Shown in pieces: positions 21,624 to 33,315 of a DNA stretch of 64,000 nucleotides. The stretch is from positions 5,208,001-5,272,000 of the forward strand of contig NZ_CP134696.1 of NCBI RefSeq assembly GCF_031851795.1. The letters run 5' to 3'. The notes beneath the pieces were generated by a model. That model was given only the letters and a program-made list of their open reading frames with translations, did no database searches and had not been told where the DNA came from. The translations under genes were made by a program, and so were the position numbers. The first letter of the stretch is position 1. Each line of letters opens with the position of its first letter. The stretch comes from Pontibacter sp. G13 (GTDB lineage: Bacteria; Bacteroidota; Bacteroidia; J057).

Positions 21624-24600
21624 ATGCTTCTGCGAACGCTACTAATCGGATGCCTCATGCTGGCTTGCTCCTCTATGATGGGGCAAGTCGAGACCTTCTT
21701 CGAACACCTCTCCAGCAATGACGGCCTTTCCCAAAACGATGTCCTCTGTCTACATCAGGATCAGTTTGGGTATATCTGGATTGGGACCAATGATGGCCTC
21801 AACCAATACAATGGATATACATTCAAGACTTTCAAGCCAGACCCGGACGACCCATACTCCATCCGCGGCAACCTGATCAGTTGTATCGAGGAGGATGAGG
21901 AAGGCAATTTGTGGATTGGGACCATCGGGTATGGATTGAACTTCTTCGATAGGAAGGAGGATCGGTTTTATCCGCTGTCCATTCCCGAAGGGCGATTTCC
22001 CCAATTTTCCGATCAGGTCATCCGGGCCATATTCCTCGATAAACACAAGCGACTCTGGGTAGCTTCTCGAAAAGGGGTGTATGTGAGCGTATTGAGCGGA
22101 GACCGGCAAAGGGAGGATTTTGTCAAAATATGGGAGCCGGGCAAGACATTGGGAAAGACGGAGGTGCTGGTCAATTTCTTTTTTCAGGATCGGGCAGGGA
22201 CGATCTGGATGGGGACTAATCGCGGGTTTACGCAGGTCGAACCCTCCGGTGAGCACTGGACGTTTACTTCGGTTCCCATGCTTGGGAGAGCGCAGATTCA
22301 CACCATGTTGGAGTTGCCTGCCAGTCAGTTCCTGATCGGTACCAGCAAGGGAATTTACTTGATGGACCGCAATGGTAGATGGGATGGCAAAGTCAAGCTG
22401 GTCCATCCCCAACCCGTGTTGAACCTCGTCCAGCATGGGGAAACCATTTGGGGAGGAGCCAATGATGGATTGTGCCAATTTGAATGGAATGGGCATGAGC
22501 TCACCTTGGCCAAGCGCTACCAAAATGATATCGCACACGAAGCCAGCTTGAGCACAGATCGTCTAAAATCTTTGTTGGTCGATCGTACAGGAATCCTTTG
22601 GGTCGGTACGTTCGGAGGGGGTATCAATCAGCTGGATTTAGGCAGGAAGAACTTCCGCCACTACAGTCGGACCTTGAGGCCCGGAACCCTTGCCCACCAT
22701 ATTGTCCGATTGATCCATGAAGATAGCAACGGGTCTCTCTGGGTCGGTACGTACGGGGGAGGACTGAGTATGCTTCTCGCTGAGGACCACGACGGATCAT
22801 TCGAGCATTTTATACACTTCAAGGAAGTCGCCAATCCCGTATCCATGACTGAAATCCATCAGGACGGCCGGAAAATCCTCGAGATTGGTACCTCCGATGG
22901 CAAGGGCCCTTATCGGATAGACATCACGCGCCCAAGTCGGCAACCGGTGGTTTCCAAAACCCAAACTGGGGAAGGTGGCATTTTCAGCATTCATCAAGAC
23001 CAATATGGCCAAATCTGGTACGGAACCTATTCCAATGGCCTACTGAGGCGAACTGAGGTGGATGATCTTCAGGTGGATAGATTGGGACTCCAGCACGGAA
23101 TCCATAGTCTGACCATCAGAAATATCTACCAAGACAAGCATGGAAATCTTTGGATCGGGACTTCCAATGGTCTCCATCGTTTGAAAGCCGAGAAACTCCT
23201 AGACGAGTTCCCCCAATTCGAGCATTTTGGACATGATCCCGAGGATTCGACGAGTCTTAGCTTCGATTACATCATGCCCATTCTGGAAACAAGCGAAGGG
23301 GAAATGTGGATAGGAACACTCGGTGGCGGATTGAATCGGATGATCCAAGACCCTTCGGATGGATCGATTCGGTTTAAGGCCTATACCGAAAAGGAAGGAC
23401 TGGCCAACAATGCTGTCAAGGGGATCGAAGAGGATGATGAAGGGAATTTGTGGATTTCAACCAATCATGGGATTTCCCGATTTGATCCGCATGCGGAGAC
23501 TTTCCAAAATTTTGATCATAAGGATGGATTGCAAGGCAATGAGTTTCAGGAATTGACCTCCCTGCGCCTTGACAATGGAGATCTCATGTTTGGAGGGGTA
23601 AATGGCTTCAATGTATTTACCCCAGAGGAAATTCAGCAAAACCCCATCCCGCCCGAAGTCCGGATCAGTCGGATGTTTTTGGGGAATGAACCTGTCCAAC
23701 CCGGACAAAAGGTGGATGGCAGGCAGATTTTGGATCAAGTGGTCATGCTGAGCGATCACATCGAGTTGCAGCACAACCAAAACCATCTCGCCTTTGAATT
23801 CGAAGCCCTTCACTTTGCCGCTCCACAGAAAAACAAGTATCGCTACCGACTCAAGGATTTTGAAACTCAGTGGCGAGATATCCCGGCTTCTCAGAGAAGG
23901 GTGTCCTATACCAATCTGCCGCCTGGAGACTATACGTTTGAAGTGATGGCAGCCAATAGCGATGATGTCTGGAATCCCACGCCTGCGCAATTGCACGTCA
24001 CGATCCACCCTCCGTTTTGGCTGACGAACTGGGCGTATGGGGCTTATTTTCTGCTTATCGTAAGCTTGCTGTGGGCATTTCGTCGGTATACCCTGATTGG
24101 GGTGAAGGAGAAGCACGAACTCATGATGGAGCATCTACAGGCTGAAAAATTGGAGGAATTGAATCGCATGAAAGAGCGGTTTTTCACCAATGTATCCCAT
24201 GAGTTCAGGACGCCCCTTTCGCTCATTGGCGGACCTTTGAAGTACCTAAAGCATCACAATGCCATCCTGATGGCTCCCGAAAGGATGAAGCAGCTGAACT
24301 TGATCCAAAGAAATACCGATCTGTTGGAAAAGCTGATCAACCAATTGCTCGATTTTCAGCGCATCGAGCAAGGTCAGGAAAACCTGGAGATCTGCCATCA
24401 GAATTTGATTCCCCATGTCGAATCCATTCACGCCTCCTTTGAGTTTGTGGCCCAGCAGCGGGACTTACATTTTATGCTGGACTGCGAATTCGAAGAACTC
24501 ACCACGTACTTTAGCCCAGATGCCATTGAGAAAATACTCAATAATCTAATTTCCAATGCCTTTAAGTATACCCCGGATGGCGGAGAGGTACTGGTGAAAA

Positions 24601-25760
24601 TCTCCCGAATCTATCAACCCCATGAAGGCGAGTCTGAAGGATTTGTACAGATCGAAGTGATAGACGATGGAAGGGGAATTGCCCGTCACAACCTCAGCCG
24701 CATATTTGAGCGGTTTTTTCAGGAGGATGAAAGCGATCGATATCGTGGGGAAAGTATGGGGATTGGATTGGCGCTGACCCGTACCTTGGTGCAGCTTCAC
24801 CACGGTTCCATTCAGGTGGAAAGCGCCCCGCAGGAGGGAACACATTTTACTATCAAGCTTCCGATGTCAGCGCATTACTACGCAGATGATCAGGTATTGC
24901 CATGCTACATCAGCCCCAAGGAGGAGGGAAACTTCACGACTCCAGCAACGATCTCAAACGACGGATTGGAAGCGCATAAACCCGGCAAGAAACCCAAAAT
25001 ACTGTTGGTGGAAGACAACTCGGATTTGCGAACCTTCATTTGCGCGGGTCTGTCCCGAAAGTATCAGATCATTGAAGCTGTCAATGGACAAGATGGTCTG
25101 GACAAGCTCAAGGAACATCATCCCAATGTGATCGTCTCGGATGTCATGATGCCCGTCATGGACGGCATTACCTTTGCCAGCTCCGTCAAGCGTCAGTTTG
25201 AATACAATCATATTCCGATCCTATTCCTGACGGCAAGGTCGGATGATGAAACCCATCTTCAGGGTTTGCAATCTGGGGCCCATGACTTTATCGTCAAGCC
25301 TTTTGATTTAGGACACCTAGAACTCAAGCTCGACAATATTATCCGTTACCGCCGTGAGTTCCAGACCTACATCCAGCGCAAGCTCATGATTCAACCCGAA
25401 GAGATTGAGGTTACTTCCACCGACCGGGAATTTATAGATCGTGTCGTAGACTTATTGGAGGAACATATCATGGATTCGGAATTCAATGTGGAAATGGTCG
25501 TCCGAGAGCTAGGCATCAGCAGGACAGCGGCATATACCAAATGCAAGGAAATGACAGGTATCTCTTTGGGGGAATTCATCCGGCGGTTCAGACTCAAGCG
25601 AGCGCATCATTTACTGAGCACCACAGATCTGACCGTCAAGGAGATCATGTACATGTCTGGATTCAATACAGCTGGATATTTCTCGCGGTGTTTCAAGAAT
25701 ATGTATGGATATCTTCCCAGCGAGGTGCGATCACAGGCCATATCGCCCTCTACAGAGTAG
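21624..25760 (+). CDS. Hybrid two-component system sensor/regulator (propeller, Y_Y_Y, HisKA, HATPase, REC, AraC)
   Basis: A 1378-residue one-protein signalling system of the Bacteroidota HTCS type. After a signal peptide ending MMGQ, two seven-bladed propellers are built from repeats of the YIWIGTNDGLNQYN kind (about 25-690). A Y_Y_Y domain follows (about 725-795), then a membrane helix (803-822). The kinase has SHEFRTP with H859, NNLISNAFKYTPDGG, DDGRGIA and a GIGLALT G-box. A receiver has LLVEDN and D1173 in SDVMMPVMDG, and a C-terminal AraC HTH ends the protein. Such proteins bind oligosaccharides in the periplasm and switch on adjacent glycan-degradation genes. Its place beside the glycosidase and sulfatases suggests it regulates them. 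Confidence 0.95.
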   Translation: MLLRTLLIGCLMLACSSMMGQVETFFEHLSSNDGLSQNDVLCLHQDQFGYIWIGTNDGLNQYNGYTFKTFKPDPDDPYSIRGNLISCIEEDEEGNLWIGTIGYGLNFFDRKEDRFYPLSIPEGRFPQFSDQVIRAIFLDKHKRLWVASRKGVYVSVLSGDRQREDFVKIWEPGKTLGKTEVLVNFFFQDRAGTIWMGTNRGFTQVEPSGEHWTFTSVPMLGRAQIHTMLELPASQFLIGTSKGIYLMDRNGRWDGKVKLVHPQPVLNLVQHGETIWGGANDGLCQFEWNGHELTLAKRYQNDIAHEASLSTDRLKSLLVDRTGILWVGTFGGGINQLDLGRKNFRHYSRTLRPGTLAHHIVRLIHEDSNGSLWVGTYGGGLSMLLAEDHDGSFEHFIHFKEVANPVSMTEIHQDGRKILEIGTSDGKGPYRIDITRPSRQPVVSKTQTGEGGIFSIHQDQYGQIWYGTYSNGLLRRTEVDDLQVDRLGLQHGIHSLTIRNIYQDKHGNLWIGTSNGLHRLKAEKLLDEFPQFEHFGHDPEDSTSLSFDYIMPILETSEGEMWIGTLGGGLNRMIQDPSDGSIRFKAYTEKEGLANNAVKGIEEDDEGNLWISTNHGISRFDPHAETFQNFDHKDGLQGNEFQELTSLRLDNGDLMFGGVNGFNVFTPEEIQQNPIPPEVRISRMFLGNEPVQPGQKVDGRQILDQVVMLSDHIELQHNQNHLAFEFEALHFAAPQKNKYRYRLKDFETQWRDIPASQRRVSYTNLPPGDYTFEVMAANSDDVWNPTPAQLHVTIHPPFWLTNWAYGAYFLLIVSLLWAFRRYTLIGVKEKHELMMEHLQAEKLEELNRMKERFFTNVSHEFRTPLSLIGGPLKYLKHHNAILMAPERMKQLNLIQRNTDLLEKLINQLLDFQRIEQGQENLEICHQNLIPHVESIHASFEFVAQQRDLHFMLDCEFEELTTYFSPDAIEKILNNLISNAFKYTPDGGEVLVKISRIYQPHEGESEGFVQIEVIDDGRGIARHNLSRIFERFFQEDESDRYRGESMGIGLALTRTLVQLHHGSIQVESAPQEGTHFTIKLPMSAHYYADDQVLPCYISPKEEGNFTTPATISNDGLEAHKPGKKPKILLVEDNSDLRTFICAGLSRKYQIIEAVNGQDGLDKLKEHHPNVIVSDVMMPVMDGITFASSVKRQFEYNHIPILFLTARSDDETHLQGLQSGAHDFIVKPFDLGHLELKLDNIIRYRREFQTYIQRKLMIQPEEIEVTSTDREFIDRVVDLLEEHIMDSEFNVEMVVRELGISRTAAYTKCKEMTGISLGEFIRRFRLKRAHHLLSTTDLTVKEIMYMSGFNTAGYFSRCFKNMYGYLPSEVRSQAISPSTE

Positions 25761-25854: not shown

Positions 25855-26367
25855 CTAGTGAATCTTCTCTACTTTGATGGCGGCCAAAAGCCGATTGGAG
25901 AGATCGCGGATCGCCAGCAGGTATACACCATCCGCAAAACCATCTAGATTCCACCGCTCTTCCTGCGTTCCTGCTTGGAGAGAGAGTTCCCGTGGAGATC
26001 CGAGTGATTTGCCGCCAAGGTCGAGCCATTCTGCACGGAGTGTCATGGCAGAGGGTATGGTCAGTTTGAGGGTCACCTCGGCCAAGGTCGGATTTGGATA
26101 GATCGACCAGTCCACCTGAATGCCATCGAGCGGATCTTGGAGTGAAGTTCCATTGGGCTGGTCAGGCTGGTGAAATCCTTCAGTTAAGGTGATCGAACCC
26201 GATTGTACGGTTTCGATTCGCATCTCCCCGAGTGTCATGGACATCTGCAAATTTCCGCCTGTGGCATGCATCCCGGCAGCACCGATCACTTGAATCTGAA
26301 GGGTCTGGCCGCAAACCAGTACGGTTCCTGCAAGGAGGAATCCTAGTAAGAGGATCAATCTACTCAT
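25855..26367 (-). CDS. Small T9SS-sorted surface protein, partner of adhesin 1
   Basis: A 170-residue protein with a signal peptide ending VLVCGQ. A conserved N-terminal module has VIGAAGMHATGGNLQMSMTLG and LTEGFHQP, followed by a type A T9SS sorting domain that begins WSIYPNP and ends LLAAIKVEKIH. T9SS cargo is exported across the outer membrane and usually attached to the surface. Its ATG overlaps the stop of the adhesin gene by four bases (ATGA), implying coupled translation. A paralogue at 29793 sits in the same position after a second adhesin. The N-terminal module's role is unknown. Confidence 0.88.
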   Translation of the reverse strand: MSRLILLLGFLLAGTVLVCGQTLQIQVIGAAGMHATGGNLQMSMTLGEMRIETVQSGSITLTEGFHQPDQPNGTSLQDPLDGIQVDWSIYPNPTLAEVTLKLTIPSAMTLRAEWLDLGGKSLGSPRELSLQAGTQEERWNLDGFADGVYLLAIRDLSNRLLAAIKVEKIH

Positions 26368-29162
26368 GGTTGGTTGATTTGTTGTTGGAGGGAAGAGATC
26401 TGGGCTTTCAGTGCTTCGATTTCCGCTTGCTGATCTTGCATTCCCTGAATCAGTACTGGAATCAAATCCGCGTAGTACACCCCCAGTTTTTCAGCGGGAA
26501 CGGTCTCCCATTCTCCCGATTCATGTTGAATGATTTCCGAATCCACGACCACCTCAGGGACTGTCTGTTGGAGGTCTTGGGCGATGAGTCCCAGCTTGAC
26601 TCCCCGATCCGGTCCTGATTTCCACTGAAAGGAAACAGGCTTGAGCTTCATGACGGTTTCGAGGCCGTATTCGATGGGTTGGATCTGCGTCTTTTCGCGG
26701 GCGTCTGAAGTATTGACGACGCCATTGGTACTATGCACACGGAACCAACGATTGGCGGTATTGCCCATGAAGAATGCGTTGTCTGTAGTGGGTACAAAGT
26801 GACAATTGACGCCCATTAAGAAAGTCCCGAAATCCTCCAGAGTCTCGATACTTCCAAGTTGAAGCTTACCTTCCACATGAAGTGCATTGTCTGGATCTAT
26901 GGTGCCAATGCCTACAAATCCATTTTTGAGGATGGTCATGGCATTCTCCCGGGTGGTGGCGGAGGTTCCGATTCCGACTTCGAATATCGGATCAGAAGAC
27001 ACCCAGTTGTTGAAGGTTCCGCCTCCGACATTGTATTGTCCGATGGCTACGGAATTGATGGCTTGCGCTTGGGTGAATGCTCCAAGCGCGGTGCTCCGAT
27101 TGCCCGAAGCGACCGTGTAGTACCCCAGGGCAAAAGATTGTTCCCCGGTCGCATCCGAAGCGAATCCAGCCGCCAAGGAATGCGTTCCCTGTGCCAACGT
27201 ATTGGACCCCATGGCCGTGGACATGGTGCCCACTGCCTCTGAATTGCTGCCAATCGCGAAGGAGGTGGTTCCGGATGCCAAAGTGCTAGATCCCATGGCC
27301 GTGGAATTGACACCTGTGGCTTCTGCCAATATCCCAAATGCTGTCGACCGAATGCCGGTCGCGCGAGTCTGGTATCCCATCGCCGTGGCATAGGTTCCTG
27401 ATGCGACAGTATATCGGCCCATTGCCACAGAGTTGTACCCCTTGGCTTTGGTGGAGATTCCCATCCCGACGGAGTAGGAACCCATGCTGTCCGTGTCCCA
27501 CTCTAGGTTGTTCACGATTCCCACACGGAAGGCAGATTTGGAGGCGGCCCACATCATTTTGGCACCTGGCCCGAGTGTATCTGCTCCAATCAGCAAGGTG
27601 TTGCCCGGAGCGATATGGAGGGGGGCTTCAGGGATCGCGGTCCCGATACCGACCTTGCCGCCATTGTAATATATCCCCGTAGATGCTACCGACCAGAGAT
27701 CGTTGTCCTCGTCCGTACCGGCTCCCCACTGGTTGCCGTCCCATTTGAGTACTTGCCCTGCTGCGGGGGGCGTAGAATTCACGGGATTGCCCTGAATCCC
27801 CTGTACGGTCAGTCCTGAGAATACGCCCGAAATATCTCCCCCGGCGAGGGTGGTGTCCACCACGTCATCGAGATGGTCGATGTCTCCGGTGTTGGTGACG
27901 ATGTTGTTGGTGATGTCGATGCCGTCGCCCGCCGTGTATTGGTCGTTGAGGTCGGGGGAAAGGGTCCACTGAGCGCCATCCCATTTGAGGATTTGTTCTG
28001 GAGCGGGGGCATTGGGATCGACGGGGTTTCCTTGAAGCTGCTCGACGGTCAGGGCAGAGAATACGCCTGAAATATCTCCCCCGGCGAGGGTGGTGTCTAC
28101 CACGTCATCGAGATGGTCAATGTCTCCGGTGTTGGTGACGATGTTGTTGGTGATATCGATGCCGTCGCCCGCCGTGTATTGATCATTGAGGTCGGGGGAA
28201 AGGGTCCACTGAGCGCCATCCCATTTGAGGATTTGTTCGGGAGCGGGGGCATTGGGATCGACGGGGTTTCCTTGAAGCTGCTCAACGGTCAGGGCAGAGA
28301 ATACGCCTGAAATATCTCCCCCGGCGAGGGTGGTGTCTACCACGTCATCGAGATGGTCAATGTCTCCGGTGTTGGTGACGATGTTGTTGGTGATGTCGAT
28401 GCCAGCACCCGCCGTGTATTGGTCATTGAGGTCCCAATCCAGTGCCCACTCGTTGCCGTCCCATTTGAGGATCTGACCGACTTGCGGGAATTTGGGGTCG
28501 ACAGGATTGCCTTGGATCTTGCCTACGTTCAGCGTCGAGAAGGTACCTGTTACATCTCCGGCGGCGGTGGAAGTCACCAAGAGATCATCGGTAGGGTCGA
28601 GGTCTCCGGTATTGGTGATGACATTTCCAGTCAGGTCGATCCCAGCGCCAGCGGTATATGAAATGACCGTTTCATCCTGCGGGACCCAAGCGCCACCATC
28701 CCACATGAGCACTTGTCCGATGAGCGGAGGAAGGCCGTCTACATCCAATAAGTCGTGAAGTTCCATTTGGTCGGCAATGTCCGATCGCTCCGAACGAATG
28801 GAGTAGGGCACTTGCCGGATGGGCGTAGTGCCCATCGCGACCCAACCCACTCCCAAGTTGAGTTCGATGAATATCTGAGGATTGGATACCGTCCAGTCGA
28901 TTCCGGCGAAGGTGCCTAACTGAGCCGTACCAGTTCCGATGGAGAGATTGACGAGACCGAATGCATTGGTGGAGGTGGTATGAGTCTCGCGATAGAGGTC
29001 AGTAGCTCCATCTTGGATGGTCACTCGCATGTCTACCAGCTGAGTGGCGAGGATATTGCCGGAGCCATCGCGGATGACGGCTTGGTAGGGGATGCCCGGC
29101 GACTGGGCAAAAGCAGGCAGCATGACCCAATAGGCCAAGCAGAATAGGAAGCATCGTTTCAT
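26364..29162 (-). CDS. Repeat-bearing adhesin with C-terminal S74 chaperone domain, copy 1
   Basis: A 932-residue secreted protein from ATG 29162, where the signal peptide MKRCFLFCLAYWVMLPAFAQ starts; upstream in-frame codons to 29276 are not used. An N-terminal domain (SPGIPYQAVIRDGSGNI) leads to about four 80-residue repeats containing QILKWDG, YTAGDGIDI and NTGDIDHLDD. YadA-like head repeats follow (TAMGSNTLAQGTHSLAAGFA type). The C-terminal peptidase S74/tail-fibre chaperone domain has TSDAREKTQIQPIEYGLE, retaining Ser and Lys of the self-cleavage dyad, then a coiled coil. It is probably trimeric and fibrous. No T9SS tail is present, so surface attachment may depend on the overlapping small T9SS gene. 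Confidence 0.88.
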   Translation of the reverse strand: MKRCFLFCLAYWVMLPAFAQSPGIPYQAVIRDGSGNILATQLVDMRVTIQDGATDLYRETHTTSTNAFGLVNLSIGTGTAQLGTFAGIDWTVSNPQIFIELNLGVGWVAMGTTPIRQVPYSIRSERSDIADQMELHDLLDVDGLPPLIGQVLMWDGGAWVPQDETVISYTAGAGIDLTGNVITNTGDLDPTDDLLVTSTAAGDVTGTFSTLNVGKIQGNPVDPKFPQVGQILKWDGNEWALDWDLNDQYTAGAGIDITNNIVTNTGDIDHLDDVVDTTLAGGDISGVFSALTVEQLQGNPVDPNAPAPEQILKWDGAQWTLSPDLNDQYTAGDGIDITNNIVTNTGDIDHLDDVVDTTLAGGDISGVFSALTVEQLQGNPVDPNAPAPEQILKWDGAQWTLSPDLNDQYTAGDGIDITNNIVTNTGDIDHLDDVVDTTLAGGDISGVFSGLTVQGIQGNPVNSTPPAAGQVLKWDGNQWGAGTDEDNDLWSVASTGIYYNGGKVGIGTAIPEAPLHIAPGNTLLIGADTLGPGAKMMWAASKSAFRVGIVNNLEWDTDSMGSYSVGMGISTKAKGYNSVAMGRYTVASGTYATAMGYQTRATGIRSTAFGILAEATGVNSTAMGSSTLASGTTSFAIGSNSEAVGTMSTAMGSNTLAQGTHSLAAGFASDATGEQSFALGYYTVASGNRSTALGAFTQAQAINSVAIGQYNVGGGTFNNWVSSDPIFEVGIGTSATTRENAMTILKNGFVGIGTIDPDNALHVEGKLQLGSIETLEDFGTFLMGVNCHFVPTTDNAFFMGNTANRWFRVHSTNGVVNTSDAREKTQIQPIEYGLETVMKLKPVSFQWKSGPDRGVKLGLIAQDLQQTVPEVVVDSEIIQHESGEWETVPAEKLGVYYADLIPVLIQGMQDQQAEIEALKAQISSLQQQINQP
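27809..28440 (-). repeat. 240-bp in-gene tandem repeats of adhesin 1
   Basis: Near-identical units with a 240-bp period (landmark GGCGAGGGTGGTGTC at 27843, 28083 and 28323). Each encodes 80 residues. A more diverged unit adjoins at 28440-28660. Confidence 0.9.
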
Positions 29163-29401
29163 AGTGGTTGGAGGTTGTTTGTAGAGAGACTGGTATGGAT
29201 CAAAAGGATTGCGTGGAGGAAAGGTCTCCAACGTGGGCTCATCTGAGTGCCCAAAATAGCTGACGGCCCGTGCCAAGCCTGTGAAGCCTGCATGATTCGT
29301 CTTGCATATTTTTGGTCAAATCAGTCGATTGGGAAGTGTACAAGTATGTCGAATCTTGGGGAGAATGAAAAGTCTGGGAATCGATTTTATCGGGAAGGAA
29401 T

Positions 29402-29612
29402 GAATGCCCGCGTGAGGGATCGTAGGTGCGCGACCTTAGGAGCGGTCCGACGGAAATGTCCTCCCCTTTCCGGGACAAAATCAACAGAAGAAACGCTCCG
29501 GGGCGAAGGGTGCAATCCGGAGGACGGGAGTGCCAACGGACCACCGCAGAGCCCGGCCCGCGCCCTCATGCCCAGCGAAGAACTTCTGCCAGACCGCGGG
29601 ACACGCCCAAAT
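29402..29612 (-). repeat. Dispersed intergenic element, copy 3
   Basis: On the minus strand it begins GGGCGTGTCCCGCGG and ends GATCCCTCACGCGGGCAT. It has the GGGCGTG/CACGC end pairing, a CTGGGCATGAGGGCG block and an ACTCCCGTCCTCCGG block shared with the other copies. The flanking 29163-29401 holds no gene. Confidence 0.6.
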
Positions 29613-29656
29613 CCTCCTTCCATTCATCAGCATTCCGTTCTGTCTCCTCCAATATC

Positions 29657-29700
29657 CAAACAGCGGATACCTCCCTCCGAAAAGAGAAGTATCCGCTGTT
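29657..29700 (-). terminator. Hairpin terminator of adhesin cassette 2
   Basis: AACAGCGGATAC and GTATCCGCTGTT form a perfect 12-bp stem with an 18-base loop, then TTTGG on the minus strand, 93 bases after the small T9SS gene. Confidence 0.6.
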
Positions 29701-29792
29701 GCGAACCGAAATTTCAGTACCCTACCCAAGTCAATGGCGGTTAGCGATACCCTAACGATCACCCTTCACCCAGCTTCGATACTGATCCAGGA

Positions 29793-30290
29793 TCAATGCA
29801 GCTTTTCGAGCTTGATCGTGGCTAGCAATTGTCCTAGAGCGTTTTCGATCTTCAAGAGGTAGAGACCGTCCGCGTGTCCGGAAAGATCGATCTCCCCTGA
29901 TTGCATGTTCAGGTCCCAAGTCGGGGCCATGTGGAGGCTTCTGCCCGCGAGGTCAAATACCTTGAGCCTCCATGTTTCGGATTGGGGATCATCGAATTCG
30001 ACCTTGAATTTTCCCGTGCTAGGGTTGGGAAATACCCGCACCGAGATTCCCAGATCGGCATAGATACGGGTCCCATTGGATGCTTCGGGTTGTTGGAAGC
30101 CTTGGGTCAACTGGATGTTTCCTGCCGCCCAAGTGAGCGTCATGGGTTCGCCTATCGTCATCGACATGGCCAAATTGGCACCAGTCGCTAGCATCCCTGC
30201 CGAACCGATGACTTGACGCTCGATGGACTGTGCGCGGAGGGACATGGTCATCCCCCAACCCACGAGTAAGAGGAGGATGCTAGTTCTCAT
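29793..30290 (-). CDS. Small T9SS-sorted surface protein, partner of adhesin 2
   Basis: A 165-residue paralogue of the 25855 product with the same plan. A signal peptide ending LRAQ leads to QVIGSAGMLATGANLAMSMT, LTQGFQQP and a type A sorting domain from VRVFPNPSTGKF to LLATIKLEKLH. It overlaps the upstream adhesin gene by 11 bases. Conservation of the pair order in two cassettes suggests that the small protein works with the adhesin, for example as its anchor or assembly factor; this is inference from gene order only. Confidence 0.88.
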   Translation of the reverse strand: MRTSILLLLVGWGMTMSLRAQSIERQVIGSAGMLATGANLAMSMTIGEPMTLTWAAGNIQLTQGFQQPEASNGTRIYADLGISVRVFPNPSTGKFKVEFDDPQSETWRLKVFDLAGRSLHMAPTWDLNMQSGEIDLSGHADGLYLLKIENALGQLLATIKLEKLH

Positions 30291-33200
30291 CGCGTGCTGA
30301 AGTTTGGAGTTGCTGAACCAGTTGGATCAATTGGTCGATCTGGGCTTGTTGCTGATCGATCAATTCTTGCTGCTCTTGGATGGCTTTGATGGCCAAGACG
30401 CTGAATTGCGCATAGTCGATGGCGTAATAGTCGGATTCCTCGTCGGGAGCGGCGACCAGCGTAGGGAATTGCTGTTCCACTTCCTGGGCAATGAATCCCC
30501 ATGTGGGTTGGGTCTCTATGCCTGCATTTCGGGTAAATCGATAGGTCACCGGTTCCAGCTGCAGCACGCGATCCAAAACCGATTCGATGGGCTGAATATC
30601 GGTCTTGAGCCTGCGGTCGGAGGTGGCGTAGTAGGTGCCGGAGGAACTGCCCCAATATCCCACCTGAGTGCCATTGTAGTACATTCGGAGTGCCGTGGAA
30701 GAGGTCATGCGCATGTCCCAATAGTTGGAGTAGCTGTTGTTGGCGATCCGCAATTGAGGGAGGTTGATGGAGCCTTTGAGATGCAGGAGCGCGTTGGGCG
30801 CCGCAAGACCGATGCCCGTCTTGCCATCTTTGAGGATGGTCATGGCATTTTTTCGAGCTACAGCGGAGGAACCGATTCCTACTTCGAACACAGGATCCGA
30901 GGAAACCCATGTTCCGGAATCACCGCCTGCGACATTGTAGCGGCCGATGGCGAAATCATTGTAGGCTTCAGCCTCGGTGTACTGACCAAATGAGGACGTA
31001 AAGGCTCCCTTGGCATCTGAAAAATATCCCATCGCCAAGCTATACTTTCCGGAGGCGACCGTGCTATGTCCAATCGAAATTGCCCAGTCTTCTAAGGATT
31101 CTGCATTATCTCCCAGCGCTATCGAATAGAACTCGGTGGCTTGGGAACCGCCTCCAATCGAAATAGATCTGGAACCCAGTGCATCGCCCCCAATGAAGGC
31201 GATCGATTGTGAGCCCAGCGCTTTGGAATAGTTCCCGAATGCAAAGGAAATAAATCCATCTGCATGAGCTTGCTGTCCCATGGCAAAGGCCGCCAAGCCT
31301 GATGCCTTGGAATTGTATCCCATCGCCACAGAAAACTGGCCCATCGCTCGGTTGAGGCTCCCCAATGCGGTGGAGTAATATCCCACACTGTCCGGGTCCC
31401 AATACGTGCCCGATGAATTGCCCAAGTATCCTGCTCGAAAAGCGCCCCGATCTGCCATCCATTGGAATCGGTATCCTGCTCCTGTCGTGTCTGCTCCAAA
31501 GAGCACAGATTTGCCGGCGCCTACATGGAAGTCCGCAACGGGCGTCTGGGAACCAATTGCCACTTGTCCGCTCGAGAAGTAGATATCATCTCCGGTTTCT
31601 GTCCAGAGGTCGGAATCTGCATCGGCATCGGGCACCCACTGCGAACCATTCCACTTGAGGACTTCGCCGTTGGTCGGGGCGGCATTGGAGACGGTTCTTC
31701 CGCGGATCTTGTTGACGGAGAGGCCGGAGAAATTGCCCGAGACGTCGCCGCCTGCATTGGAGGTGTTGGTGAGGTCGTCGGTGGGGTCCGTGTCGCCGAG
31801 GTTGGTGATGGTTCCATTATTGATCTGGATGCCTGATCCGGCGGTGTAGGCATTGTTTTCATCGGCATCGGGCACCCATTGCGAACCATTCCACTTGAGG
31901 ACTTCGCCGTTGGTCGGGGCGGCATTGGAGACGGTTCTTCCGCGGATCTTGTTGACGGAGAGGCCGGAGAAATTACCCGAGACATCGCCGCCTGCATTGG
32001 AGGAGTTGGTGAGGTCGTCGGTGGGGTCCGTGTCGCCGAGGTTGGTGATGGTTCCATTGTTGATCTGGATGCCTGATCCGGCGGTGTAGGCATTGTTTTC
32101 ATCGGCATCAGGCACCCATTGCGAACCATTCCACTTGAGGACTTCGCCGTTGGTCGGGGCGGCATTGGAGACGGTTCTTCCGCGGATCTTGTTGACGGAG
32201 AGGCCGGAGAAATTACCCGAGACGTCGCCGCCTGCATTGGAGGAGTTGGTGAGGTCGTCGGAAGGGTCCGTGTCGCCGAGGTTGGTGATGGTTCCATTGT
32301 TGATCTGGATGCCCGATCCGGCGGTGTATGCATTGTTTTCATCGGCATCCGGCACCCACTGCGATCCATTCCACTTGAGGACTTCGCCGTTGGTCGGGGC
32401 GGCATTGGAGACGGTTCTTCCGCGGATCTTGTTGACGGAGAGGCCGGAGAAATTGCCCGAGACATCGCCGCCTGCATTGGAGGAGTTGGTGAGGTCGTCG
32501 GAAGGGTCCGTGTCGCCGAGGTTTGTGATGGTTCCATTGTTGATCTGGATGCCTGATCCGGCGGTGTATGCATTGTTTTCATCGGCATCGGGCACCCACT
32601 GCGAACCATTCCACTTGAGGACTTCGCCGTTGGTCGGGGCGGCATTGGAGACGGTTCTTCCGCGGATCTTGTTGACGGAGAGGCCGGAGAAATTACCCGA
32701 GACATCGCCGCCTGCATTGGAGGTGTTGGTGAGGTCGTCGGTGGGGTCTGTGTCTCCCGTATTCTCGATGACGGGGCCATTGATTTGGATGCCCGCGCCT
32801 GCTTGATAGGCAGTTCCGGAACTGAGCGAAGCAGGTTCCCAAGCCGCTCCATTCCATTGTAGCACTTGGTTAGCTACTGGATTGGCCGCCTGCACATCGG
32901 TGAGCAGATCGAGCGTCATCTGATCTGCGATATCTGACTTCTGGGCACGGATGGAGTAGGGAACCTCGCCGATGGGCTGACTCCCCATGAGCACATAACC
33001 CGTACCGAGATCCAGCTCCACCTGAATCTGCGACTGGATCGCCCGCCAATCGATCTGGGCATAATCCCCGAATACGACGACTCCTTGGCCGATGGTGGTA
33101 TTCACCAAGCCGAAATCATTGGTCTGAAGGACATGTGTCTCCTGAAACACAGGAACATTGCTGTCCAAAATGGAAAATCGTACCGAGATGGGTTGGTTGG

Positions 33201-33315
33201 AAAGGATGGCTCCCTGTGCATCGCGGATGACCGCCTGATAGGGAATACCGGAAAGTTGGGCGAAGCCATAGCATGACGACACCAACAGGGTGAACAATAA
33301 GACCAGCTTTTTCAT
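30280..33315 (-). CDS. Repeat-bearing adhesin with C-terminal S74 chaperone domain, copy 2
   Basis: A 1011-residue secreted protein with signal peptide MKKLVLLFTLLVSSCYGFAQ. An N-terminal SGIPYQAVIRDAQGAI domain is homologous to adhesin 1, and the ADQM stretch is shared. Five 80-residue repeats (GEVLKWNGSQWVPDAD, NAYTAGSGIQI, NLGDTDPSDD, GGDVSGNFSGL, NKIRGRTV) are nearly identical. YadA-type head repeats and an S74 domain follow (TSDRRLKTDIQPIESVLDRV, GFIAQEVEQQFP, then a Gln-rich coiled coil). Ser and Lys of the self-cleavage dyad are present. Phage fibres with this domain fold as trimers and cleave it off. No T9SS tail is present. Confidence 0.88.
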   Translation of the reverse strand: MKKLVLLFTLLVSSCYGFAQLSGIPYQAVIRDAQGAILSNQPISVRFSILDSNVPVFQETHVLQTNDFGLVNTTIGQGVVVFGDYAQIDWRAIQSQIQVELDLGTGYVLMGSQPIGEVPYSIRAQKSDIADQMTLDLLTDVQAANPVANQVLQWNGAAWEPASLSSGTAYQAGAGIQINGPVIENTGDTDPTDDLTNTSNAGGDVSGNFSGLSVNKIRGRTVSNAAPTNGEVLKWNGSQWVPDADENNAYTAGSGIQINNGTITNLGDTDPSDDLTNSSNAGGDVSGNFSGLSVNKIRGRTVSNAAPTNGEVLKWNGSQWVPDADENNAYTAGSGIQINNGTITNLGDTDPSDDLTNSSNAGGDVSGNFSGLSVNKIRGRTVSNAAPTNGEVLKWNGSQWVPDADENNAYTAGSGIQINNGTITNLGDTDPTDDLTNSSNAGGDVSGNFSGLSVNKIRGRTVSNAAPTNGEVLKWNGSQWVPDADENNAYTAGSGIQINNGTITNLGDTDPTDDLTNTSNAGGDVSGNFSGLSVNKIRGRTVSNAAPTNGEVLKWNGSQWVPDADADSDLWTETGDDIYFSSGQVAIGSQTPVADFHVGAGKSVLFGADTTGAGYRFQWMADRGAFRAGYLGNSSGTYWDPDSVGYYSTALGSLNRAMGQFSVAMGYNSKASGLAAFAMGQQAHADGFISFAFGNYSKALGSQSIAFIGGDALGSRSISIGGGSQATEFYSIALGDNAESLEDWAISIGHSTVASGKYSLAMGYFSDAKGAFTSSFGQYTEAEAYNDFAIGRYNVAGGDSGTWVSSDPVFEVGIGSSAVARKNAMTILKDGKTGIGLAAPNALLHLKGSINLPQLRIANNSYSNYWDMRMTSSTALRMYYNGTQVGYWGSSSGTYYATSDRRLKTDIQPIESVLDRVLQLEPVTYRFTRNAGIETQPTWGFIAQEVEQQFPTLVAAPDEESDYYAIDYAQFSVLAIKAIQEQQELIDQQQAQIDQLIQLVQQLQTSARDEN
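31615..32757 (-). repeat. 240-bp in-gene tandem repeats of adhesin 2
   Basis: Almost five units with 240-bp period (starts near 31621, 31861, 32101, 32341 and 32581). They differ at only a few positions each, far less than the flanking gene differs from its paralogue. They keep stop-free shadow frames open on both strands. Confidence 0.95.

Follow-up and report, generated by a model that had tools for sequence, protein, structure and literature searches.

The closest described counterparts of the proteins discussed here are the mosaic adhesive trimer (MAT) fibres with which the predator Bdellovibrio bacteriovorus recognises its prey. According to the founding paper, a beta-rich domain of ~130 amino acids lies directly after the signal peptide in every fibre, and the family comprises S74 and non-S74 subgroups with diverse tips (PMC10769870, Nat Microbiol 2024). 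The N-domain presumably binds a surface element, which the same paper describes as still unidentified (PMC10769870).

The second point of comparison is the T9SS. Type A tails are all recognised by the common shuttle PorV, and cleavage can set type A substrates free (PMC12618676). Type B cargo is held at the surface by PorP-like barrels (PMC9143113). In PorU and PorZ the tail stays uncleaved and remains attached to PorV and PorQ (PMC10202324). The observations below point to a widespread fibre system in Bacteroidota and some neighbouring lineages, in which the sorting signal and the anchor come from a separate partner protein.

Two fibre and partner gene pairs in the window

The window analysed is a stretch of 64,000 nucleotides from Pontibacter sp. 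G13 (contig NZ_CP134696.1, positions 5,208,001 to 5,272,000). It holds two minus-strand gene pairs arranged head to tail, each with a fibre gene followed by a small gene. The original prediction of two paralogous pairs, each joining a secreted fibre protein to an overlapping small T9SS gene, is confirmed by the open reading frames, Pfam and TRF. In the list below, profile A2 was made from aligned N-domains and profile A4 models the partner module; both were built with the window sequences included.

33315..30280, minus strand: large1, Sec-secreted MAT-like fibre protein of 1011 aa (ORF, S74, YadA_head, Bdello_MAT_N)
32920..33252, minus strand: MAT_N of large1, the predicted fibre base (G000:C1:5240920-5241252; profile A2, E 6.2e-51)
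31620..32754, minus strand: 80-residue tandem repeats of large1 (TRF, 4.7 copies, 97% matches)
30916..31401 (approximate limits), minus strand: YadA-like head repeats of large1 (PF05658)
30454..30621, minus strand: S74 chaperone/autoprotease domain of large1 (PF13884, 66.8 bits; SDRRLK intact)
30290..29793, minus strand: small1, T9SS partner of 165 aa (PF18962, 42.3 bits; TIGR04183, 34 bits)
30072..30230, minus strand: partner module of small1, RQVIGSAG...LTQGFQQPE (profile A4, 99.5 bits)
29835..30035, minus strand: type A T9SS sorting domain of small1 (PF18962, residues 86-152)
29162..26364, minus strand: large2, Sec-secreted MAT-like fibre protein of 932 aa (ORF, S74, YadA_head, Bdello_MAT_N), counted from the ATG at 29162; the mechanical ORF starts at a TTG, 29276
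28767..29099, minus strand: MAT_N of large2 (profile A2, E 1.7e-49)
27805..28666, minus strand: 80-residue tandem repeats of large2 (TRF, 2.6 copies, 95% matches)
26907..27359 (approximate limits), minus strand: YadA-like head repeats of large2 (PF05658, 7 stretches)
26547..26708, minus strand: S74 domain of large2 (PF13884, 62.3 bits; SDAREK intact)
26367..25855, minus strand: small2, T9SS partner of 170 aa (PF18962, 27.5 bits)
26149..26307, minus strand: partner module of small2 (profile A4, 98.4 bits)
25894..26103, minus strand: type A T9SS sorting domain of small2, a weak match (PF18962, 27.5 against a cut-off of 27)
25819-25790, minus strand: terminator-like hairpin 3' of small2 (13-bp stem, weak T-rich tail; a consensus match only)

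On the plus strand at 21624-25760, a 1378-aa HTCS-type hybrid two-component regulator ends head-on with the cassette.

The architecture of both kinds of protein can be read directly from the sequence. Each large protein has a Sec signal peptide, an N-domain opening with G-I-P-Y-Q-A-V-I-R-D, 80-residue repeats with a 240-bp unit (TRF), YadA-like heads, an S74 domain and a soluble, Gln-rich, coiled-coil-like C terminus. Pfam assigns Peptidase_S74 to large1 and large2 with E-values of 9e-17 and 2.7e-15, and YadA_head with 2e-14 and 5e-29. Both retain an intact S74 motif, SDxxxK, and are thus expected to cleave themselves. Pfam matches to DUF6087 on the repeats are likely a repeat artefact, no single stretch passing in large1. 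As originally claimed, the large proteins carry no T9SS tail and no membrane anchor of the trimeric-autotransporter barrel type that the Pfam and NCBIfam scans could find.

Each small protein is made up of a signal peptide, a module of ~50 residues and a type A T9SS tail; the Sec signal peptide of small1 was read from the sequence with no prediction program. They are 44-45% identical and share the module signature V-I-G-x-A-G ... L-T-x-G-F. Pfam finds Por_Secre_tail at E 9.6e-11 and 3.8e-6. The tail of small1 exceeds both cut-offs (PF18962, 42.3 against 27 bits; TIGR04183, 34 against 23), whereas that of small2 is marginal, passing PF18962 by half a bit (27.5 against 27) and falling short of TIGR04183 (18.1 against 23 bits). 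In an AF2 model of the small protein the tail folds well, and the module alone has low confidence (about 50). The start of small1 overlaps the stop of large1 by 11 nt, and small2 overlaps large2 by an ATGA.

The cassettes had originally been called duplicated. They are paralogous, but a recent tandem duplication is contradicted by their S74 domains: that of large2 is 66% identical to the S74 domain of a third cassette elsewhere in the genome and only 38% identical to that of large1.

The MAT-type N-domain and the fibre family

NF053851 (Bdello_MAT_N) matches large1 with 31.9 bits (E 1e-7) and large2 with 34.1 bits (E 2.1e-8), both under the NCBIfam cut-off of 60 bits for this Bdellovibrio-tuned model. 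Further, 101 of 102 related N-domains match it at E ≤ 0.001. At the sequence level these scores are a sign of domain homology, not of membership of the Bdellovibrio subfamily. AF2 models MAT_N as a confident beta-sandwich with a following helix, with pLDDT >90 over most of the domain and block means of 80-97 over residues 1-90 of large1. A search of the MAT_N fold against the PDB gave no match at E ≤ 1e-3, only generic beta-sandwiches, in agreement with the MAT paper (PMC10769870).

The window proteins fit the MAT fibre layout, in which a signal peptide and N-domain precede a repetitive stalk and a variable tip, with S74 in one subgroup. Among 148 MAT_N proteins, 30 end in S74, all 30 with SDxxxK; collagen-like stretches occur in 80 of the 148, and the remaining ends are varied. 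None of the 148 bears a T9SS tail or is fused to the partner module, and a lipobox-like motif lies near the MAT_N domain in only 2 of 144 fibres.

The likeness to the Bdellovibrio MAT fibres extends over the signal peptide, a related beta-rich N-domain, a fibre of ~1000 aa, several paralogs per genome and variable tips, some of them S74-ended with SDxxxK. The fibres differ in that each has a T9SS partner; the available part of the founding paper describes no partner gene for MAT (PMC10769870). The original prediction knew of no such system and missed both the domain shared with the described MAT family and the PorV or PorP/SprF barrels that cassettes elsewhere bring along. The pairing of a tail-less fibre with a small adaptor is absent from the literature searched.

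The YadA-like heads and the trimeric-fibre type of architecture are also those of type Vc adhesins (YadA, Ata, EmaA), and the C-terminal intramolecular chaperone with intact SDxxxK is that of S74 phage tailspikes and fibres such as K1F endosialidase and the T5 L-shaped fibre. YadA_head and S74 occur in both kinds, and there are weak NCBIfam matches to YadA, Ata and EmaA. One could take the proteins for trimeric autotransporters or phage tail fibres of the usual kinds, with a T9SS gene close by through chance alone. We consider this extremely improbable. The matches to YadA, Ata and EmaA are all far below the NCBIfam cut-offs, and scans of these loci found neither a C-terminal translocator barrel nor a phage structural operon. 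Unlike type Vc adhesins, the fibres have no C-terminal YadA-type membrane anchor or translocator, so that export and anchoring must come from elsewhere. Unlike S74 phage fibres, they are chromosomal, Sec-secreted, multi-copy and built on a MAT_N base, with an S74 end in only the minority counted above. Lastly, all six copies in the own genome are paired with a T9SS protein.

Pairing of fibre and partner within and across genomes

In the own genome (7.67 Mb), S74 occurs at four loci, and a module protein follows at every one. Two more module proteins adjoin large proteins without S74, one directly after a 369-aa protein (L007) and the other directly before an 854-aa protein (L008). Profile A2 finds exactly six N-domains, at the same six loci as the six modules, one-to-one and adjacent. 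As two of these six fibres have no S74, the module tracks the N-domain and not S74. A link between partner and S74 is ruled out by these two pairs and by most outside pairs, which likewise have no S74. The original prediction rightly took the small T9SS protein for a partner conserved with the fibre, but its link to S74 needs replacing by one to the MAT-like N-domain. One giant member of the fibre family (3248 aa; L005, L009; G000:C1:488469-498661) has many 80-residue repeats and its own small partner after it.

Over the six pairs, MAT_N distances correlate with module distances (Mantel r 0.67, exact p 0.0014) and less clearly with tail distances (r 0.44, p 0.065); six pairs are few, and joint cassette inheritance would also yield correlation.

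Whether the pair is conserved elsewhere was one of the tests attached to the original prediction; run in both directions, it was passed. In the forward direction, small1 alone was scanned against GTDB genomes, giving 77 loci with 83 module ORFs. For 76 of these ORFs, a MAT_N ORF lies no more than 2.5 kb away on the same strand, before or after the module ORF. The distance is at most 150 bp for 25 of the 76 (fibre gene first in 13, partner gene first in 12) and larger for 51. The seven remaining module ORFs are without MAT_N, one of them (L083) beside an S74 ORF cut by the contig end. Many of the forward loci cannot count as independent, being from related species of Chitinophaga and Pedobacter.

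In the reverse direction, 118 genomes were sampled evenly over the phylum: 24 carry MAT_N and 12 the module (E ≤ 1e-4), and 11 of these 12 also have MAT_N. Of the 40 MAT_N genes beyond those of the own genome, the reverse test covers 38, and 34 of the 38 have a small T9SS partner on the same strand, mostly overlapping or within 70 bp. This count takes in two tandem second fibres (L104, L111) and one fully decayed locus (L126), and some diverged modules in it were recognised from the tail and by eye (for example L093, L094, L098, L112, L113, L116, L117 and L121). An initial count of 13/40 at E ≤ 1e-4 had suggested that many MAT_N genes are partnerless; reading of the loci found T9SS proteins with diverged modules beside nearly all of them. 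Within the same loci, 36 small T9SS-tail or module ORFs fall in the 105 kb beside MAT_N, as against one in the other 165 kb. The pairing is thus conserved, but the gene order, originally described as conserved too, varies between partner first and fibre first.

Some observations speak against the small protein being an adaptor for the fibre. No partner accompanies the MAT_N genes of L109 and L125 or the two weak ones of L130, and a few T9SS-like module proteins lie without a nearby MAT_N (L072, L085, L082). The low AF2 confidence of the module alone, the marginal tail of small2 and the lack of a shuttle gene in the window cassettes also count against it. In one genome examined over its whole chromosome (G130, locus L039), there are 17 MAT_N matches, some of them fragments or with a stop, and five recognisable modules, four of them adjacent. 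Several fibres of that genome may share one partner or have diverged partners. At two loci (L104:4240-8144, L111:4105-7992) one small partner is followed by two tandem fibre genes, suggesting that one adaptor can serve two fibres.

Adjacency cannot by itself prove interaction, and many loci come from related genera. The two genes could be neighbours through shared regulation or surface-variation islands only, their products never acting together. This we hold to be highly improbable, as the pairing holds across families that differ in gene order, tail type and shuttle, and as one MAT locus (L126) has decayed in all its parts. At this locus (L126:3419-5726) the fibre domain, the module and the tail are all fragmented, and these parts seem to have been lost together.

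The module also heads longer ORFs: 849 aa at L092:9890-12436, 751 aa at L095:2470-4722, 274 aa at L072:9989-10810 and 379 aa at L085:3641-4777. The larger two could be displayed effectors, in line with a reversal of roles: the fibre would act as the anchor, with the small protein as a cargo that it displays or that is set free next to it, and the module would serve as a T9SS effector's docking tag. Such a reversal is very unlikely: most partners are module and tail alone, with no effector to display, and the fibres, with their near-complete lack of lipobox-like motifs, have neither a T9SS tail nor an autotransporter barrel.

Tail types, shuttle barrels and a probable adaptor in trans

The own genome has about 100 T9SS tail-like matches and a PorV of 455.9 bits. 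This PorV, the sole one above the cut-off, is unlinked to the cassettes, and the window cassettes hold no PorV or PorP/SprF gene. Cassettes of Chitinophaga, Pedobacter and Parapedobacter have PorV as the gene that separates partner and fibre (49 PorV ORFs in 44 loci; NF033710 E 1e-114 and 3e-118 for the two tested). In most such genomes checked, a second PorV elsewhere scores higher (about 470-500 against 365-395 bits), which marks the cassette copy as a paralog; the two Parapedobacter genomes have two copies of similar score, each of them within a cassette. Two other loci (L100, L101) combine the module with a type B tail (TIGR04131, 3.6e-22 and 1.3e-21) and have PorP/SprF after the module gene (TIGR03519, 4.6e-51 and 1.3e-51). 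Similarly, L103, L107 and L121 have a type B tail and PorP/SprF by local models. Type A tails thus go with PorV and type B tails with PorP/SprF: tail and shuttle switch together, and the module and MAT_N stay constant. PorV is present in 24/24 MAT_N genomes of the sample against 91/118 overall, which is weak evidence because the PorV-less genomes are mostly of one family.

Genetic linkage of cargo to a dedicated barrel is known for type B substrates with PorP/SprF (SprB-SprF; PG1035-PorP-PorE; PMC9143113, PMC12618676), and some MAT cassettes use exactly this tail and shuttle. In SprB-type systems, however, the adhesin itself bears the tail, whereas here the tail is on a separate small protein and the fibre has none. 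Other MAT cassettes pair type A tails with a linked PorV, whereas the literature consulted describes PorV as a shuttle shared by every type A tail (PMC12618676).

Probably, each pair forms a trimeric MAT-type surface fibre with a dedicated T9SS adaptor that supplies the anchor, and possibly the export signal, in trans. MAT_N would form the base, followed by a stalk of 80-residue repeats and YadA-like heads, and the S74 domain would chaperone the fibre tip and then cut itself off. The N-terminal module of ~50 residues in the small protein would bind the fibre's MAT_N, and its C-terminal domain would be handled by the T9SS and an outer-membrane shuttle barrel. This barrel, or a surface attachment, would then retain the adaptor and hence the fibre, with translational coupling keeping the two in step. 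In other lineages the cassette would bring its own shuttle, PorV with type A and PorP/SprF with type B tails. Binding of the module to MAT_N, trimerisation, surface location and anchoring are steps that we infer; retention by barrels has precedents in PorP-like barrels with type B cargo (PMC9143113) and in PorU and PorZ on PorV and PorQ (PMC10202324).

That the small protein anchors or assembles the fibre is well motivated, and the two roles can be weighed against each other. As an assembly factor, it would be delivered by the T9SS to nucleate or register the trimer, as a chaperone or template, and would not be the lasting anchor. Translational coupling and co-conservation fit this role equally well, the module alone is not confidently folded by AF2, and type A substrates can undergo cleavage and release (PMC12618676). 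Pure assembly nevertheless appears unlikely. The cassettes carry the shuttle barrels PorV and PorP/SprF, of which PorP-like barrels hold type B cargo (PMC9143113), and S74 fibres already own a chaperone domain.

A bolder form of the adaptor proposal is piggyback export: in the periplasm the small protein would attach to the tail-less fibre and take it along through the SprA translocon, after which the PorV or PorP barrel would hold it at the surface. This export step is offered tentatively, as a possibility that we doubt somewhat more than we believe. If it is correct, a separate protein of ~165 residues would do all the exporting and anchoring for a fibre family that spans the phylum. Use of T9SS is not known from Bdellovibrio. 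If that organism has none, its MAT fibres would need another export route.

The fibre domain and the T9SS parts are of known kinds. The open-access papers searched on piggyback T9SS export, multiple PorV genes and S74 or MAT fibres in Bacteroidota do not describe the system. They contain no tail-less fibre family paired throughout with a small T9SS adaptor, no PorV gene sharing a cassette with type A cargo and no tail type exchanged together with its shuttle.

Surface attachment of MAT fibres is an open question in the founding paper (PMC10769870), for which a 50-residue module on a T9SS substrate is a concrete candidate. The Bacteroidota cassettes make this question testable in laboratory strains. 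If the adaptor proposal is true, the T9SS anchors, and perhaps exports, proteins without a sorting tail, and a large fibre family escapes any list of T9SS-dependent surface proteins that is drawn up from tails. A match of module and N-domain offers a rule for finding such fibres, and the linkage of PorV genes with type A cargo takes the 'one shuttle per adhesin' logic beyond type B, where it is known.

In a more distant family (f23), three loci (L127-L129) have very weak MAT_N matches on ORFs of 1250-1740 aa, each with a small T9SS partner adjoining. With partners beside such weak matches, the model probably covers less than the whole N-domain family.
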